Source of the DNA: Candidatus Hydrogenedentota bacterium
GTDB taxonomy: Bacteria > Hydrogenedentota > Hydrogenedentia > Hydrogenedentales > CAIZGN01
Length of the DNA: 44,338 nucleotides
Assembly: GCA_903932505.1 (NCBI GenBank)
Contig: CAIZGN010000416.1
Span: 1 to 44,338, forward strand
Direction: 5' to 3'
Part shown: one piece after another, positions 20,509 through 28,817 of the stretch
How the letters are laid out: each line of letters starts with the position of its first letter
Position numbering within the stretch: the stretch's first letter is position 1
Made by a program: the position numbers and the translations under genes
The notes under the pieces: model-generated
Told to the model about the DNA's origin: nothing
The model's input: only the letters and a program-made list of their open reading frames with translations
Databases searched by the model: none

Positions 20509-23500
20509 TCAGCGCTGCTTACCCGCCCGGCGCTGGACGCTCCATTGGATCAGCAGCAGGATCATTGTGATAGTGGCCAGCCAGAGCATGTCGCCCGGGA
20601 AGGAGGCCATGTCTTCATCACCCGCACCGCACCACAGGAAACGACGCGCCTTGGCCGGTTCCCCTTCGCCCTCGCCTTCGTGCACAGTCTCGCCTTCGTG
20701 CACAGTCTCGCCTTCGTGCACAGTCTCGCCTTCGTGCACAGTCTCGCCTTCGTGCACAGTCTCGCCTTCGTGCACAGTCTCGCCTTCGTTCAACAGCTTC
20801 TCGGTGAGCGCAACCGTGATAGTGGCCTGCGCCCCGTCGTCCACATTCACCGGGGAAGTCACGGCCACAAACGTGGTGGCGTTCACGGTGAGGCTGTAGA
20901 CACCCGCGCCCACGGCAGGAAAGGCGTATACGCCGTTCTCGTTTTCCGTGAGGGCGGAATAGGAACCGGGTGCAAGCTGGACGGATGCGGTGGTGAGGCG
21001 TTTGAGACTTTTGGCATCGACCACAGCACAATAGATGGCCCCGGCGAGAATACCCGCATTTTTCTCGAGGAAAGGCTGGACATCTTCCTCCTTCACAACC
21101 TGTTCCTCATCCTTCATCTTAATCCTGAGCTGGATTTCGTCGTAGGTGTAGACGCCCCAGTCGTTGTTCTGCATTTTGAAATCGCTGTCGGTGTCATTGA
21201 TTACCGCCAATTCCCCCTCGGACTTTGCGTCAAATCGGAAGGTGTTCCATCCGCTGGCCGCCGAGGTTATGTCGCCTAGGCCGCCGGTGTCACCTGCCTT
21301 CGCGGCGGAGGCCTCGATCTCGATGCCTGTCTTTGAGAAGTGTTCGAAGATGCAGCGGCGTACTTTTGGGATTGAACCTTTGATGCGCAGGCAGGTCGCG
21401 AAGTTACTAAAGGTCACCTTCTCCAGCACGGTGTTCTTGGGCGCAGAACCCGACACTTCAACGCCGGTCTCAGGTACAAACAGTCCGCCGTCTAGTTTTG
21501 TGTTGCGGAGGATCATGGCCACATCCGCCAGCGTCACCAGCGGGGAGCTTGCATCAGCAGCCGCGATGGTGAGGCCGTCGACCGTGCAATTGGCCGCGCC
21601 GGTCAGGGTTCCTAGGATCTTGGCTTCGCCGGAAACTTGCGCGAGTGTCACGTAGGGGCTCAGCACCACGTTCTCCGCATAGGTGCCGGGACGCACCAAA
21701 ATGCGCACCGGACTGGCGGATTGTGCGGCTTTTCCGATCGCGAACTGGATGGTCTGGTAGGGATTGTCGAGTCCGCCCCGTCCGTCTCCATCCATACCCG
21801 CGACTGCGTCGACAAAGAGTACGGGCACGGGACTCATTGCATCGTCGGGCTTGGAACCTTGGAGGTATTCATCCAGATTCGACAATCCGTCGCCATCCGC
21901 ATCAAGACCGGCATCATTGACGAGCGGATTGAATTCATAACTCACTTCGTAGCCATCGGGCATCCCGTCGCCGTCCGAGTCGTTGTTTTTGGGATCGGTG
22001 CCCCACGCAAAGGTTTCCTTGCAGTCGCTCAATCCGTCATGGTCGCTGTCGATGCCCCCGCTGGAGTTTTCACAAGCAGACAGACAGGCCTCGGAGTTCC
22101 CGCTTGAGCATTGGGTCGTGAAACCCCACACGGGACCCCACGTTTCGCCCCCGCTGGTCCGGGCGACCACCTGCCAGCGGTAATACATACCCGGCGTGAG
22201 TGGCCCGGGGTCACACTCCAGCGAATCGGTACCCTGACATTTGAGGGCACCGTTGACATACACGTCGAAAACGGGGGCGCACTCCGTCCAACGCACCGTG
22301 GCGACATTGGAGTAGACCAAGGCTTCATTGCCACCGATAAAGGAAGCACGGATGCTGTCCAATCCCGCACCACCCTCGTCGGAGTAGGTGAAGCTGGCCC
22401 TACCGGAACTGTCGGTCATTACCGAATTGCTCAGGCCGGCATTGGATCCGGCAATCACCTGGAAGTTGATGAATTGACTGACCGCCGGGGCCCCAAGGGC
22501 ATCTGCGATGACCGCATTGACGGTATGATTCGAGCCGACTTGGCGAACGGAGGAGGACGGGCCCAATATGATGCCCTCGCCGAGTAGCGCGGTTCCGGAA
22601 AGCACGAAATACCCGAAGAAAATATTGTCATTTGTGGAGGGGTTGGATGTGCTAACCGTGATGGTGGTATCGGTGGGACTCAGCACCGGCAGGAGACTGT
22701 ACAACTCATCATCGTAGCGTGTGTCTGCATCGCCGATCATATTTGGGTCGACCGGGTTCGCGTTGGTATCATCCAGTCCGCCAACCGTTATGAGACCGCC
22801 GTCGGAGCAGACGCCATCGTCCTGACCGCCTGCCGAAGTGGACAAGCGCACACCCTGCACGTCCACGATACTGTATTGCGTGCTCGGGCACTGGTAGCTG
22901 TAAGAGATTCCCAAGCCCATGTCAGCCATGGCACCAGGCATGGCCGAATTGATGGGCTCGGCGAGCGTGATCTTAAAGGCATCTCCGAACACATCCTGCG
23001 CACCGAAGAGCAGGATGAGTGTGCGGTCGGCCAACTGAAGAGGATCGTCAAACACGACCACCAGAATCTCGCCGTCCACGTTGTAGGTGTTGGCTTCCGT
23101 GAAGGTGAAAGGAATGCGACCGGGGGGTGCCGCATCCACGATAGGCTTGAGTGTGCTGGTGAGGTCGGCAAGATAATTGTACGAGCCGATAGTGCTCGGA
23201 GTCGATGAGTTCCATGTAATGCCAACCGTTGGCGGGGAGATCGTCACCTCATTATCCGCGATGGGTACTGCGCTCTGACCCACGGAGGCGACGAGCACAT
23301 AGGCGGCACGCACGGTGGCGGAGGCGTTGGGCTTTTCCACTTCTGCGACATGGCTGACATCGTTCGATCCGGCACCATCGGCAGAGATAAAGAGTCGGCC
23401 TGTCGCTGAGAAGAAAGACGACAGCGAACTACCTGTTTTGGCTGCACCGAGTTTGGCCACGGTCGGGGTGGTCTCGCCGGGGGCGCAAGGCGTCCGGTCT

Positions 23501-26500
23501 GCCGCAACTGCAGCCGAGACGCGCTCGACATCGCCTGCGGATACCTGATGCGCTGCGCAGTACTGCGTGAAGGATGTTTCGTTCGCGGGTGTACTTGCGG
23601 AAATATCGCCGCTTTTTTCAGCGGCCCACGCACTCCAGCGCAGGATGGTGTTCGCGGGCACGTCCAACGTGCCATTGGCGGGACTGGGGACTTGGGCAAC
23701 AGAGGGGGAGGTACAACCCGCCTCGCCTTCCCCTTCGCACGGCGCGCAGTCCGATCCCACATTGACCCCCCGCCATTCGAGTGCGGGAATATACGAGCAG
23801 CATGAGAGCTGACTCAGTGGGCTACCATACACATACACAGAATCCTCGGCACCCAGTCCCTCGCTGGAGAGCAGCGGACTGAGGTCAGTGATGGGGTTGT
23901 AACACAAGTCAAACTCGTAGATGCTATACAGGCCCACAAGCGGCATGAGGTCCGAGATTTGATTCGATTCCGCATATAGATACTCCAGATTATACAAGGT
24001 GGCCAGCGGGCCGAGATTCGAGACGGAATTGCCCTCAATATCAAGGTCTCTGAGATTGAACAATCCACTCAACGGACTCAGGTCGCTGATGTTGTTGGAA
24101 TGCAGACTCAAGTAATACAGACTTACAAGTCCGGACAGGGGGCTTAGGTCGTAGACTAGATTGGAATCGACATCGAGATCGACGAGGTTCACCAAGTTGG
24201 ACACGGGCGCAAGATCGCTTACCTGGTTCGAGTACAAGTAGAGGTATTGGAGGGCGGTCATCCCCGACAGCGGCGTCAAGTCGGTGATATCGTTGTACTC
24301 AAGATTCAACTGGGTGAGGTTTATCGCATACTCGAGACCCGTAAGGTCGTAGATGCTCCATTCAGACAGGTCGAGGGAGGTGAGGGTAGCCAAGTCTGCG
24401 GGATAAATCGGGCCGATTATGTACAGCGCTTGTCGGAGGCCCGCTTCAAGGTTCGGGTCGGGAAAGACAATGCCATCGTTGGGGGCTTGATTGGCGATGT
24501 GGTCACCCGACTTGAGGTAGGTGCCGGGCGCATATACGGACAACGTTTGCGTGTACACGGAATTGATGGTGAGCAGATTGGAGGAAAGAGTACTGAGATC
24601 GAAATCTACCGTGTTGGGGAACGCGGCGGTTTCATCCAAGGGGATGTATATGTCCGCTACTTCATACAAGCCCAGCACGGTGACTTCAGCAAGGGTGGAC
24701 GATGCAGCCAGACCGTTGGTAAAATTACGGAATCCCCCAAAGGCCCGTGGCACCCACCAATCGGCGTTCGTGGGATCCGAAACCCAGGAAATCATCTGAT
24801 TGGGCACCCCGGTCAAGTCACTGTCGCCATAGTAATAAATATCAAGGGCATCAGTCTGCCCAAGAATCTTGGCCGTTGAGTTATCCACCCGGATCCATCC
24901 CCCCGAAGGTCCATTCTCAGGGTTACAATCGCATGACAAACTGGTTCGCGTGAGGCCCTCGCTCGTGGGCCATGAGGAAAGGCGCAGCGTATTCCCGTTT
25001 ATTGCATAAAAGCTGGCTTCGTTCGTCACCTCCCCGGGTACCCAGATGCCGTCACTGTTCATAATCTCCACTGTTTGAAGGCACAGCATCCGGTCGACTT
25101 CGGAGACCCAATCTGCGGTAAAGTTGCCGCGCCCCTTGGTGGTGCTTTCACCGACCTGCGCGAGAAGCGTAAATTGATCCCCGCAGAAACACAGATTCAC
25201 CCGGATCGGGGTCATCTGGTCATACCATTCCGCAGACCAGGTGCCCTGCAACGCCCCAGCTTCTTCCACATCGGGTTGGATAACGGTGCAATCGATCGGG
25301 CAGGGCCACCAGTTCACAAGGACGCCACTGCCCACGAGTGCCGGAATCACGTCATTTCTACTGTACAAATTCAACGGGTTGCAGGATACGTCCACCATGG
25401 TCAACGAGGAAAGGCCCTGCAGCGGCCCGAGGTTCGCGATGCTGTTCCCATACAGGTGCAGATTGGACAAGTTAATGCAATATTCAAGGCCCGTCAGATC
25501 GGTGACGCCACTATTGTCGAGGGAAAGGCTGATGATGCTCAGCAGGGACGCCGGACAAATCGGCTCCGTGGGGTTCGCGGTCTGGAGCCGAATCTCAGCC
25601 TCCAGGACGGGATCCGGGAAGCTCACCGGAAATCCATCACATGCCCCGAAAAGGGCTCCCGAAAAAACGGCGGGTTCTGTCCCCGGGCCCTGATAGTCCA
25701 CCCGGTCGATGGTGAAGGATCCAGTCGTGCTGTCGTCACTGCTCAGCGACAGGCCAAAGGAATCACCAATCGCCGCCAGACTGGTCACGTCGATGAAGCT
25801 CCCCTGCCAGAAATCCCCTGCCGTGCTCAAAAGAGAGTCGCAACACGCTTCGACGTTGAGTTGGGAGAAGTGTAGCCGAATGGCGGTGGCACCGGGCTTG
25901 GTGACCAGGCCGGTGAGCATTGAATTATTCGCATACGCAACCAAGCGATCCACCGGTTCACTTTGCCAGACGATTTCGCCTTCACCCTCAATGGGCGCGA
26001 GATCAGCCAGATGCGCGGTCGTCTTCGTGTATTGACCTGGCGTGTAGGCTGATACGACATCGGTGTAGACCGCGTTAATGGCGATCACGTTGGCAGCGAC
26101 CGTACTCAGATCGAAGTCGACGGAATTCGTGAAATAGGAACTCGGATCAAGCGGGAAATACGCGCCGGTTTCATAGGTACCCTTGATGGTGACGGTGGCA
26201 GTGGCGGATACCGCGCCCACCGTGTTGGCGAATTTCGTGAAGGTACCGAAGGCCCAGGGTTTCCACCAGTCCGGCGCGTTGGGGTCAGAAATCCAGGATA
26301 CCAGATAGTTGGAAATGCCGGTGAGGTCGCTGTCGCCATAGTAATAGATATCGAGCGCGTCGGTTTCCCCCAGCAGCTTGACAGGCGTTGTGCGTATCCA
26401 ACCACCGCTAATCGGGATTGCAAGCGGGTCCTGTACCTTCAAATAGGGATACCCGCCCGGTGCCATCGCCCACACCGTAGTGAAATCCCAAGCATAAAAG

Positions 26501-27324
26501 GTGCTTATATCTCTCATGCTCGCATCGTTGAGCCCCAGCCCCCCCGCCGATACGGTTTGGTGGCTTGTTTCTGCATTCCAATAGGACTCAAGAAATATGC
26601 CGCCCGAAGTCGCCCCGATCAACCCGCCCGAACCATTGAGTGAGCCCGTCACCAGCCCGGTGGCATAGCAGTTTACCACTGCGCCGGAATTGTTCCACCC
26701 AATCAATCCACCGACATAGTCGTTTCCATACACCGCCCCTATCGAATAACAGTTCTCAACCCCCCCGAGATAATTTTGACCGACTAAGCCACCCGACTGA
26801 GAGGTTGGGGCGTCTGCCCACACGGCTACGGCGGTAAAACAAGCTTCCAAGGTTCCACTGTTGCTACCGGCCAGTCCGCCAACATAGTCGCTGCCTGAGA
26901 CCGAGCCACCATCAAGCCCCAGTAAGCGCACACCTCCCCCGTCGCCTATTACTCCGAAAAGCCCCACATACGATTCAGAGGGTCGGTTAATCACCAATCC
27001 AGTGATACGGTATCCTCGTCCATCAAGCTGTCCCGTAAAGGGTTCGACCAAAGAGCCAATGGGGGCAAAGCCAGCCCCGGCGTTCCAGGTGGCGGTTGGA
27101 CTTGCGTCTATATTGTTATTTAGCGAATAATTCGCATTCAGTGGATAGGCTGGATCCTTCCCGATCTTCTGTAAATCGTCGATGCTGAACAAGGTAATCT
27201 GCGCTTTTGCCACCGGGCAAATACCGCAGAGCAAGATCAAGAGCAGCAGCCACCACTCCCGCCGTGCAAGCCGACCGCTACGGACAGACAAAAATTTTGT
27301 TAAGAAAAAAGCCGAAAAACGCAT
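20509..27324 (-). CDS. Giant modular surface protein: GLUG, LRR, split FN3, TSP3, beta-helix, C-terminal anchor
   Basis: A 2271-residue exported protein, probably at the cell surface. Residues 1-41 are a long signal peptide (basic lead-in, WWLLLLILLCGI, cleavage near AKA). Modules in order: GLUG-type Gly repeats (about 110-280); domain X1, unrecognised (about 305-444); EGEGE linker and a jelly-roll-like part; LRR block 1 (590-660); a lipocalin-like stretch; domain X2, similar to X1 (about 806-948); LRR block 2 with about eight 22-residue internalin-like repeats (968-1165); a fibronectin-like domain apparently interrupted by a ~445-residue insertion; TSP3-type calcium-binding DxDxDG repeats (1748-1825); a DUF1565-like right-handed beta-helix; a carboxypeptidase-regulatory-like domain; and six HEGETV-type repeats. 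The C-terminus has a Cys, a hydrophobic helix and RRAGKQR. The start at 27324 has GGAG 8 bases upstream. Likely adhesive; ligand unknown. Confidence 0.88.
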   Translation of the reverse strand: MRFSAFFLTKFLSVRSGRLARREWWLLLLILLCGICPVAKAQITLFSIDDLQKIGKDPAYPLNANYSLNNNIDASPTATWNAGAGFAPIGSLVEPFTGQLDGRGYRITGLVINRPSESYVGLFGVIGDGGGVRLLGLDGGSVSGSDYVGGLAGSNSGTLEACFTAVAVWADAPTSQSGGLVGQNYLGGVENCYSIGAVYGNDYVGGLIGWNNSGAVVNCYATGLVTGSLNGSGGLIGATSGGIFLESYWNAETSHQTVSAGGLGLNDASMRDISTFYAWDFTTVWAMAPGGYPYLKVQDPLAIPISGGWIRTTPVKLLGETDALDIYYYGDSDLTGISNYLVSWISDPNAPDWWKPWAFGTFTKFANTVGAVSATATVTIKGTYETGAYFPLDPSSYFTNSVDFDLSTVAANVIAINAVYTDVVSAYTPGQYTKTTAHLADLAPIEGEGEIVWQSEPVDRLVAYANNSMLTGLVTKPGATAIRLHFSQLNVEACCDSLLSTAGDFWQGSFIDVTSLAAIGDSFGLSLSSDDSTTGSFTIDRVDYQGPGTEPAVFSGALFGACDGFPVSFPDPVLEAEIRLQTANPTEPICPASLLSIISLSLDNSGVTDLTGLEYCINLSNLHLYGNSIANLGPLQGLSSLTMVDVSCNPLNLYSRNDVIPALVGSGVLVNWWPCPIDCTVIQPDVEEAGALQGTWSAEWYDQMTPIRVNLCFCGDQFTLLAQVGESTTKGRGNFTADWVSEVDRMLCLQTVEIMNSDGIWVPGEVTNEASFYAINGNTLRLSSWPTSEGLTRTSLSCDCNPENGPSGGWIRVDNSTAKILGQTDALDIYYYGDSDLTGVPNQMISWVSDPTNADWWVPRAFGGFRNFTNGLAASSTLAEVTVLGLYEVADIYIPLDETAAFPNTVDFDLSTLSSNLLTINSVYTQTLSVYAPGTYLKSGDHIANQAPNDGIVFPDPNLEAGLRQALYIIGPIYPADLATLTSLDLSEWSIYDLTGLEYAINLTQLNLEYNDITDLTPLSGMTALQYLYLYSNQVSDLAPVSNLVNLVDLDVDSNLVYDLSPLSGLVSLYYLSLHSNNISDLSPLSGLFNLRDLDIEGNSVSNLGPLATLYNLEYLYAESNQISDLMPLVGLYSIYEFDLCYNPITDLSPLLSSEGLGAEDSVYVYGSPLSQLSCCSYIPALEWRGVNVGSDCAPCEGEGEAGCTSPSVAQVPSPANGTLDVPANTILRWSAWAAEKSGDISASTPANETSFTQYCAAHQVSAGDVERVSAAVAADRTPCAPGETTPTVAKLGAAKTGSSLSSFFSATGRLFISADGAGSNDVSHVAEVEKPNASATVRAAYVLVASVGQSAVPIADNEVTISPPTVGITWNSSTPSTIGSYNYLADLTSTLKPIVDAAPPGRIPFTFTEANTYNVDGEILVVVFDDPLQLADRTLILLFGAQDVFGDAFKITLAEPINSAMPGAMADMGLGISYSYQCPSTQYSIVDVQGVRLSTSAGGQDDGVCSDGGLITVGGLDDTNANPVDPNMIGDADTRYDDELYSLLPVLSPTDTTITVSTSNPSTNDNIFFGYFVLSGTALLGEGIILGPSSSVRQVGSNHTVNAVIADALGAPAVSQFINFQVIAGSNAGLSNSVMTDSSGRASFTYSDEGGAGLDSIRASFIGGNEALVYSNVATVRWTECAPVFDVYVNGALKCQGTDSLECDPGPLTPGMYYRWQVVARTSGGETWGPVWGFTTQCSSGNSEACLSACENSSGGIDSDHDGLSDCKETFAWGTDPKNNDSDGDGMPDGYEVSYEFNPLVNDAGLDADGDGLSNLDEYLQGSKPDDAMSPVPVLFVDAVAGMDGDGRGGLDNPYQTIQFAIGKAAQSASPVRILVRPGTYAENVVLSPYVTLAQVSGEAKILGTLTGAANCTVDGLTIAAADASSPLVTLADVAMILRNTKLDGGLFVPETGVEVSGSAPKNTVLEKVTFSNFATCLRIKGSIPKVRRCIFEHFSKTGIEIEASAAKAGDTGGLGDITSAASGWNTFRFDAKSEGELAVINDTDSDFKMQNNDWGVYTYDEIQLRIKMKDEEQVVKEEDVQPFLEKNAGILAGAIYCAVVDAKSLKRLTTASVQLAPGSYSALTENENGVYAFPAVGAGVYSLTVNATTFVAVTSPVNVDDGAQATITVALTEKLLNEGETVHEGETVHEGETVHEGETVHEGETVHEGETVHEGEGEGEPAKARRFLWCGAGDEDMASFPGDMLWLATITMILLLIQWSVQRRAGKQR
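20671..20796. repeat. 18-bp tandem repeat inside the giant gene
   Basis: Six perfect consecutive copies of CTCGCCTTCGTGCACAGT (20671-20778) and a seventh diverged copy (20779-20796). On the coding strand they encode the hexapeptide HEGETV, just before the EGEGEP linker and the C-terminal anchor. Perfect identity means recent expansion and probably length variation between strains. Confidence 0.95.
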
Positions 27325-27417
27325 AATGATGGCTCCAAATAGTTGTCTCTTTGCGGTGCAAGATCCATCCGGGGGCGAAAACAATGGAACACACGACCCC
27401 AAAAGTTCACCTATCAT

Positions 27418-27447
27418 ACTATACCGCCCAAAGTGGGATTACGTCAA
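27418..27447 (-). promoter_or_regulatory. Putative sigma-70 promoter of the giant gene
   Basis: On the minus strand TTGACG (27447-27442), an 18-base spacer and TATAGT (27423-27418) match five of six consensus bases each. The transcript would have a leader of about 85 bases before 27324. Confidence 0.6.
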
Positions 27448-27593
27448 GGATAAAATGAAAATTGCAGAAAAAAGCAGGGAGTGGATGAATGGAGAAAGGC
27501 TGAGGTCTATCGGCCGTACGGCGTTGCAAAACCCGGATTTTGCCGGTCTCAAAAAAAAACGCCAGAAGAGAAGAACTTTCCGCGCGTTTAGGT

Positions 27594-27599
27594 TATAAT
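27594..27599 (+). promoter_or_regulatory. Possible -10 element upstream of the gcvH-like gene
   Basis: A perfect TATAAT lies 69 bases before the start codon at 27669, but the -35 position is poor. The rest of the 344-base divergent gap (27325-27668) holds the minus-strand promoter at 27418-27447 and a 47-codon frame at 27455-27598 that I do not call. Confidence 0.4.
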
Positions 27600-27668
27600 T
27601 GCACCCATAGGGTTGGCGCGTGAGTCCCTAGAATAACGCTGGCATGAAAGAGAAGGATACAAGCTACC

Positions 27669-28055
27669 ATGAATCCCGAGCGCTTGAGGTATACCGAAGA
27701 CCACGAATGGATCGGAGAACAGGACGGACTTTACGTGGTGGGAATCACGGACTTCGCCGAGGAACAACTCGGCAGTATCACCTATGTCGAATTGCCCGAG
27801 GAGGGGCGAGACCTGCATGCGGGCGAGGACGCGGGGTTGGTGGAGTCTGTGATGGAGGAACGCGACGTGTATGCGCCGGTTTCCGGCCGCGTCGTGGAAA
27901 TCAACCACGTCATAGAGGACTCGCCCGAAAAGGTGAATCAGGATCCGTATGGCAACGGCTGGTTCTTCAAGATGGAGGGGGTGAACCCCAGTGATGTGGA
28001 AGACCTCATGGATGTCCGCGCCTACCGCCTGTATTGCCTGGATAATGCGGATTGA
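27669..28055 (+). CDS. gcvH: GcvH-like protein lacking the lipoyl-lysine
   Basis: A 128-residue protein that matches glycine cleavage H protein along its whole length: YTEDHEW (8-14), VGITDFAEEQLG (24-35), YVELPEEG (39-46), VYAPVSGRVVEIN (67-79), and GNGWFFKM, then EDLMD near the C-terminus. H protein carries lipoate on a Lys in the motif ESVKA and shuttles aminomethyl groups between the P, T and L proteins. Here the motif reads ESVMEERDVYAP, with Met62 (ATG) where Lys (AAG) is expected; the following A-x-S is also changed to E-E-R. As written it cannot be lipoylated at the usual site. No other gcv gene is present. A lipoate-ligase homologue starts 33 bases downstream. The start follows GAGAAGGA at about 11 bases. 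A sequencing error is possible but would explain only the Met, not the adjacent changes. Confidence 0.88.
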   Translation: MNPERLRYTEDHEWIGEQDGLYVVGITDFAEEQLGSITYVELPEEGRDLHAGEDAGLVESVMEERDVYAPVSGRVVEINHVIEDSPEKVNQDPYGNGWFFKMEGVNPSDVEDLMDVRAYRLYCLDNAD

Positions 28056-28088
28056 TTTTCGACGATCCCCGCATGTGGTTCAACGGTC

Positions 28089-28817
28089 ATGATTCGCCTT
28101 CTTGATAGGTCGATGGCGGAGCCTGCGGAAAATCTGGCGCTGGACGAAGCCCTGCTGGAATCGGCCGGGCAGCCGGGTTGTGGGGGATGGCTGCGGTTTT
28201 GGGAGAGTCCTGTTTCTTTTGTGACGCTCGGGGTGTCTCAGGTCGCCGCGCAAGAGGCTCATCTGACGCATTGTTCGGAAGATGGCGTAGCGGTGCTGCG
28301 TCGTTGCAGCGCGGGCGGTTGCGTGTTGCAGGGGCAAGGGTCGTTGAATTATGCACTCGCCCTGCCATTCGAGCTGTTTCCGGTATTGCGGGGGTTGCAG
28401 GCTTCGTACACGCATATCCTCGGCAAGGTCGGCAATGCATTCGCAGCGTGCGGGATCAACCTGGCGCATCAGGGAATTTGTGACCTCGCCTTGGACGGGC
28501 GCAAGGTCTCGGGCAACGCGCAACGTCGCACCAAGGACGCTCTCCTGCATCACGGCACGCTGCTGTATCGCATGGATCACGATGCGCTGGAGCGCTATCT
28601 GCGCGAACCGGCAGAACGTCCCGCCTATCGTGGCGATCGGGGCCATCGCGATTTTGTCACGGTTCTGCCCTGCGATCCCAATGAAATCAAAGCGGCGATC
28701 ATCGTAGCGTTTGCGCCTTTGGACGCTGGGGCGATCGTTGAACCGGCCCTGATGGCCCGCACCCAAACCCTGGCCACTGAAAAATACCGGGATCCCCAGT
28801 GGAACTTCCGGCGGTGA
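28089..28817 (+). CDS. Lipoate-protein ligase A family protein
   Basis: A 242-residue member of the BPL_LplA_LipB fold. Recognisable elements: NLALDEALLE (15-24); RRCSAGGCVLQGQGSLNYAL (71-90), equivalent to the RRxSGGG lipoate/adenylate loop but with Ala for the second residue of the Gly run; and GRKVSGNAQRR (137-147) with the conserved Lys139, followed by LLHHGTLLY. The tail ERPAYRGDRGHRDFV is typical of a common bacterial LplA-like subfamily. It would attach lipoate or octanoate to a carrier domain. No separate LplB-like domain is fused. Its start has no strong ribosome binding site. It is coupled to the gcvH-like gene upstream (33-base gap) and followed after 14 bases by GH31, probably one transcript. 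Confidence 0.85.
   Translation: MIRLLDRSMAEPAENLALDEALLESAGQPGCGGWLRFWESPVSFVTLGVSQVAAQEAHLTHCSEDGVAVLRRCSAGGCVLQGQGSLNYALALPFELFPVLRGLQASYTHILGKVGNAFAACGINLAHQGICDLALDGRKVSGNAQRRTKDALLHHGTLLYRMDHDALERYLREPAERPAYRGDRGHRDFVTVLPCDPNEIKAAIIVAFAPLDAGAIVEPALMARTQTLATEKYRDPQWNFRR

Follow-up and report, generated by a model that had tools for sequence, protein, structure and literature searches.

The H protein of glycine cleavage (GcvH) accepts lipoate on a lysine, and without this lysine it accepts none at the known site. In microbial pathogens, an H-like protein, GcvH-L, is reportedly paired with the lipoate ligase LplA2 and with SirTM at loci without gcvT or gcvP, and is said to be lipoylated itself. 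LbpA, a GcvH homologue acting outside glycine cleavage, belongs to sulfur oxidation, is encoded near an LplA-family gene and is the substrate of its dedicated ligase (Cao et al. 2018, PMC6067878). In Thermoplasma acidophilum, the catalytic domain of the ligase LplA is a separate small protein, with the accessory domain LplB as its partner.

Here we analyze a contig of 44,338 nucleotides from a Candidatus Hydrogenedentota bacterium (hereafter, the window), in which a GcvH-like protein without the lipoyl lysine is encoded directly ahead of an LplA-family ligase. We refer to this gene as gcvH*, to its product as H*, and to the second GcvH of the same genome, encoded on contig C616, as the C616 H protein. 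No literature match, by title or abstract, was found for a GcvH lacking its lysine or for a replaced gcv operon. A sequence-only reading of the window had left two explanations for the pair: a non-canonical role, such as a scaffold or an LplB-like helper of the ligase, or an H-like protein that is a decoy or in decay.

The lipoyl site of H*

The gcvH* gene (27669–28055, forward strand) encodes a 128-residue protein, identified as the native H-protein orthologue by family models, tree position and fold model. It scores 130.5 bits over its whole length with PF01597 (GCV_H; cut-off 22.2) and 141 bits with the TIGR00527 gcvH equivalog model (cut-off 115.85). Its lipoyl segment reads ESVMEERD, where most relatives have ESVKAASD. 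VMEER replaces VKAAS (the codons for VMEERD being GTG ATG GAG GAA CGC GAC), such that the altered lipoyl hairpin (27852–27863, forward strand) carries Met62-Glu63-Glu64-Arg65 where relatives carry Lys-Ala-Ala-Ser. The sequence-only reading had correctly recognized a full-length GcvH frame with ESVKA replaced and Met at codon 62, but misplaced the Met codon at 27873–27875, which is codon 69 (Ala); it lies at 27852–27854.

We compared H* with its counterparts in 68 genomes of the phylum including its own, which is the only member of its family. All 58 orthologous GcvH recovered from the other genomes have the lipoyl Lys, each followed by Ala, and the GcvH lipoyl segments listed from other phyla have the Lys too. 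The alignment thereby establishes, at the level of sequence, that this genome alone has lost it. This is the very pattern that the earlier reading had named as telling against its proposal, and it refutes a conserved non-canonical H-ligase pair, though not a lineage-specific one; decoy, decay and lineage-specific repurposing remain. Since four adjacent codons depart from the consensus, a single base-calling error does not explain the change, as had been argued from the start. A local template switch was also considered as their source and rejected, as similar sequence is absent from the window.

With Met62 in place of Lys, lipoylation at the usual site is impossible, in line with the earlier claim, and H* would provide neither glycine cleavage service nor a lipoyl relay. 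In the E. coli H protein, Ser-67 is a residue of the lipoate-arm cavity, and Arg at this position lowered glycine cleavage activity (PMC7733448). Arg65 of H* aligns with Ser-67, a correspondence that fits a loss of carrier function by H*.

Other H-like proteins were seen along the way. In two genomes, a further type of GcvH-domain protein has HHGDRK or HHGDRH at the position of ESVKA (L193:1486-1782 and L194:1491-1799, in G041 and G047). This protein too has an H fold that lacks the usual lipoyl site; it adjoins multihaem (CxxCH) and sensor-kinase-like proteins, and the G047 protein has an N-terminal hydrophobic segment. Five loci (L189, L190, L191, L192 and L195, in G034, G036, G024, G035 and G037) encode a second GcvH-like protein with an EGFKAVSDIY-type motif, in which the Lys is present; in G034 this gene is followed by one for a metallochaperone-like GTPase. 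A GCV_T domain also occurs in a 1192-residue open frame (G000:C362:12216-13004, L005), which possibly encodes a dimethylglycine/sarcosine dehydrogenase-like protein.

Conservation, rate and predicted fold of H*

Across the 34 columns conserved in at least 90% of relatives, H* differs at four (K62M, A63E, A64E and L82I), and outside the hairpin only one of 31 strongly conserved sites is altered (L82I, a conservative change). Counted by residue class, it departs at 5 of 48 columns, namely Ser36 (27774–27776, forward strand; Asp or Glu in 58/58 relatives), Met62, Glu63, Glu64 and Lys88 (27930–27932, forward strand; Leu, Ile or rarely Arg in relatives); the relatives average 0.36 such departures and never exceed 3. 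Given the loss of the Lys, the probability that both neighboring Ala would be hit among so few other changes is ~0.006, a post hoc figure that assumes independent sites. The H* end branch is the longest among the native GcvH rows (0.72), from a genome that is alone in its family. The GcvH:LplA distance ratio is 0.85 for the H* pair and 0.88 ± 0.08 in relatives, indicating that the H* gene overall has not accelerated relative to lplA. In the AlphaFold model (mean pLDDT 95.1), H* is predicted to keep the H-protein fold intact, and its nearest solved structures are H proteins (TM 0.93 to 1onl); together with the family scores, the model bears out the earlier statement that the H fold is conserved.

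H* does not look like a product of ordinary decay, since most of its conserved-site departures sit in the lipoyl hairpin. Its intact sites, normal rate and hairpin clustering make long free drift a poor fit. The pattern fits either a recent loss, perhaps through one complex mutation, or a relaxed hairpin in a protein whose fold is still used.

One way to keep H* at work would be attachment elsewhere, whereby it would serve as an acyl carrier or glycine-cleavage H protein through another lysine (Lys88 or Lys101) or some other attachment. Lys88 is seen in no relative at that position, which would suit this reading, but it falls in a helix of the model rather than in the hairpin, ordinary H proteins all have Lys101, and the genome has a complete canonical system on C616. 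We regard such a carrier as barely credible.

A second way would be repurposing: the H fold would be kept to dock on LplA, LipA, LipB or GcvT/GcvP, either as a dead-end pseudosubstrate or as a regulator, with Met in the place of the acceptor Lys. The retained fold and non-hairpin conserved sites, the normal rate relative to LplA and the concentration of changes in the acceptor hairpin all speak for it. Met in place of Lys is, moreover, known to inhibit a lysine-modifying enzyme from H3K27M, a dominant inhibitor (PMC7518889), which serves here as an analogy only. Against it, the pattern comes from a single genome, the docking is putative, Glu63 and Glu64 change the surface beside the acceptor site, and the changes could stem from one recent complex mutation. 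We hold repurposing in this broad sense to be possible, if somewhat doubtful; its specific form, in which H* would be a natural Lys-to-Met pseudosubstrate, a docking partner occupying or regulating the adjoining ligase, seems unlikely to us.

The adjoining ligase and other lipoylation enzymes

The lplA gene (28089–28817, forward strand) lies 33 bases downstream of gcvH* on the same strand, and encodes a 242-residue lipoate ligase family catalytic domain (PF21948, 118.8 bits), whose orthologues end the gcv operon of relatives. The catalytic domain (PF21948/PF03099) and the catalytic Lys place it in the LplA family, and Lys139 (codon 28503–28505, forward strand) is invariant in 43 aligned relatives, which upholds the earlier report of an intact Lys139 motif in an LplA-family neighbor. 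No match to the fused LplB accessory domain PF10437 was found in the 242 residues; the LplA proteins of relatives are of about the same length and accompany a normal GcvH. On the question of LipM-type octanoyltransfer, matches to the NCBIfam GcvH acyltransferases were weak (~20 bits). In the window LplA, two residues that never vary among the relatives are replaced: Val46 by Thr and, in the LQGPGSLN loop, Pro83 by Gln.

A PF03099 search returned the window gene only, as though it were the sole ligase of the genome; this idea was dropped when a PF21948 search found a second LplA/LipB-family gene, which reads as LipB. LipA is present elsewhere in the genome (340 bits, above cut-off), as are two 2-oxoacid dehydrogenase E2 genes. 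Given LipA, the LipB-like gene and the E2 genes, the window lplA has other possible clients.

An ancestral five-gene operon in the phylum

Of the 68 genomes of the phylum, 60 carry lplA. It shares a contig with gcvH in 33 relatives, where ~2.8 kb separates the two and the gene order is gcvT-gcvH-gcvPA-gcvPB-lplA, one contig stopping short of gcvT; this recurring order establishes the operon as ancestral on sequence grounds. Thirty-five loci of relatives cover the stretch ahead of gcvT, and 33 of them have a ZMP/ZTP riboswitch there. Because it precedes gcvT, glycine cleavage and the operon-end lplA are probably under purine/one-carbon control in the phylum. In one genome (L179:6301-6346, G051), an Acido-Lenti-1 RNA match (54.3 bits; gathering 37) lies just upstream of the gcv operon, and in another (G049:C14:4623-5311, L177) lplA is broken by an in-frame TAA.

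The adjacency of gcvH* and lplA is therefore inherited from the five-gene operon and does not speak for a new role as scaffold or LplB-like helper, which the sequence-only reading had raised for the pair; it also weakens the case for a repurposed H*. New in this genome is that the locus has lost gcvT, gcvPA, gcvPB, the riboswitch and the lysine. That the gcvH* frame stayed intact despite deletions on both sides, as the first gene ahead of lplA, is a further point for repurposing. As for lplA, its retention without gcvH is possible, as illustrated by G041 (L215, C80), where it lies alone between unrelated genes with no gcv gene adjoining; a search of the G041 genome did not find a canonical GcvH.

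The gcvH* leader (27418–27668, forward strand) holds neither a gcvT remnant nor a ZTP riboswitch; in the window, remains of gcvT or gcvP next to gcvH* were looked for and not found, and no ZMP/ZTP riboswitch turned up. By eye, a TATAAT is seen in the leader at 27594–27599, while a good -35 box is absent. Also judged by eye, one flanking ORF has a GH31-like product and another a large product that looks secreted, and no sirtuin or macrodomain was recognized among neighboring ORFs. The secreted-looking protein (20509–27417, reverse strand) has 2302 residues, with leucine-rich-like repeats; at its end, ETVHEG repeats lead up to a hydrophobic C-terminal segment.

A second glycine cleavage system in the same genome

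The earlier reading had suggested searching the genome for a lysine-bearing gcvH and for gcvT and gcvP, and these were found together on C616 as a complete gcvT-gcvH-gcvPA-gcvPB operon, whose H protein has the normal ESCKAA lysine motif and which holds the genome’s only GDC-P family match. The C616 gcvPA shares 69-71% identity with the Phycisphaerae nearest to it, as opposed to mostly 50-56% with its own phylum; for gcvT, identity is 50-55% to the closest outside operons versus 34-43% in the operons of relatives. In a 128-row GcvH tree, the window GcvH falls within the native clade (99/92 support), and the C616 GcvH within a Phycisphaerae-type clade (100/96). No ZTP riboswitch was found in the C616 stretch scanned.

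The contig itself appears native. It carries the genome’s only match for glucose-6-phosphate isomerase (PGI), 79% identical to the phylum, and, ~2 kb upstream of gcvT, a Tex gene that is 59% identical to its nearest relatives (compared within the phylum); the contig agrees with the window in base composition and in tetranucleotide profile. Identities, tree and composition together establish a foreign-type operon on a native-looking contig, as far as sequence can tell. They bear on the reading that all this is an artefact of assembly or binning, whereby the hairpin sequence would be wrong, or C616 would be foreign and H* the host’s only H protein. The assembly has 740 contigs and an estimated contamination of 4.91%, which leaves some room for this. 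Yet four adjacent codons are altered in frame with no stop, and PGI, Tex and composition link C616 to the phylum and to the genome, making a contaminant contig unlikely. We consider an artefact, in either form, quite improbable.

A probable operon replacement and its remnant

Taken together, these results lead us to an account that we consider probable as a whole: gcvH*-lplA is what remains of a native gcv operon that was replaced by horizontal transfer. The native state would have been riboswitch-gcvT-gcvH-gcvPA-gcvPB-lplA. A complete gcvT-gcvH-gcvPA-gcvPB operon, now on C616, would then have been gained from a Phycisphaerae-like donor, and the native gcvT, gcvPA, gcvPB and riboswitch deleted afterwards, an order of events that we infer. 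The lplA gene would have been retained for lipoylation, in company with LipB and LipA. Once dispensable as aminomethyl carrier, the native H protein would have lost its Lys and hairpin sequence (VKAAS to VMEER), with the H work of glycine cleavage falling to the C616 H protein.

As for H* itself, we favor an unemployed, still foldable relic, having lost its Lys recently or through a single complex mutation, over the repurposed docking or pseudosubstrate protein; the chances of the relic reading being right we judge to be about even. What weight remains beyond these two goes to an artefact and to other roles.

The locus offers a natural experiment on how the rest of an operon fares once a copy gained by horizontal transfer has taken over: the ligase stays, the carrier loses its modification site and the fold remains. 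Were H* functional, it would be a pseudosubstrate of a lipoylation enzyme, and to our knowledge pseudosubstrate regulation of such an enzyme has not been reported. The locus also holds a warning for annotation, as gcvH* exceeds the GcvH equivalog cut-off and yet no working H protein is possible.

Comparison with known systems

Compared with GcvH as defined by TIGR00527 and PF01597, H* is alike in length, predicted fold, nearly all conserved non-hairpin positions and tree orthology to native gcvH. It is unlike it in having Met-Glu-Glu for Lys and two Ala, and in the loss of gcvT/gcvP and the riboswitch from its locus; both gcvT and gcvP lie on C616, beside the other gcvH. Family score and fold are thus those of a functional GcvH, whereas the lipoyl Lys of ESVKA and the linkage are not.

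The LbpA system likewise places a GcvH homologue outside glycine cleavage near an LplA-family gene. LbpA is modified by its ligase, however, whereas H* has no Lys to modify and its pairing is a gcv operon remnant; no shdr-type linkage was seen by eye among neighboring ORFs, setting the locus apart from LbpA/sHdr. GcvH-L shares the pairing of an H-like protein with a ligase, but reportedly retains the lipoylation that H* lacks, and its structure (5a35) is only 21% identical to H* in the structure match. Like the T. acidophilum LplA, the window LplA is a catalytic domain in a small protein of its own, and 2ars and 3r07 are among its PDB sequence matches, but its neighbor has a GcvH fold, in contrast to the LplB accessory domain of the archaeal pair. 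The locus corresponds to a remnant left by xenologous replacement, in that the native orthologue is left behind and an imported complete copy is present in the same genome.
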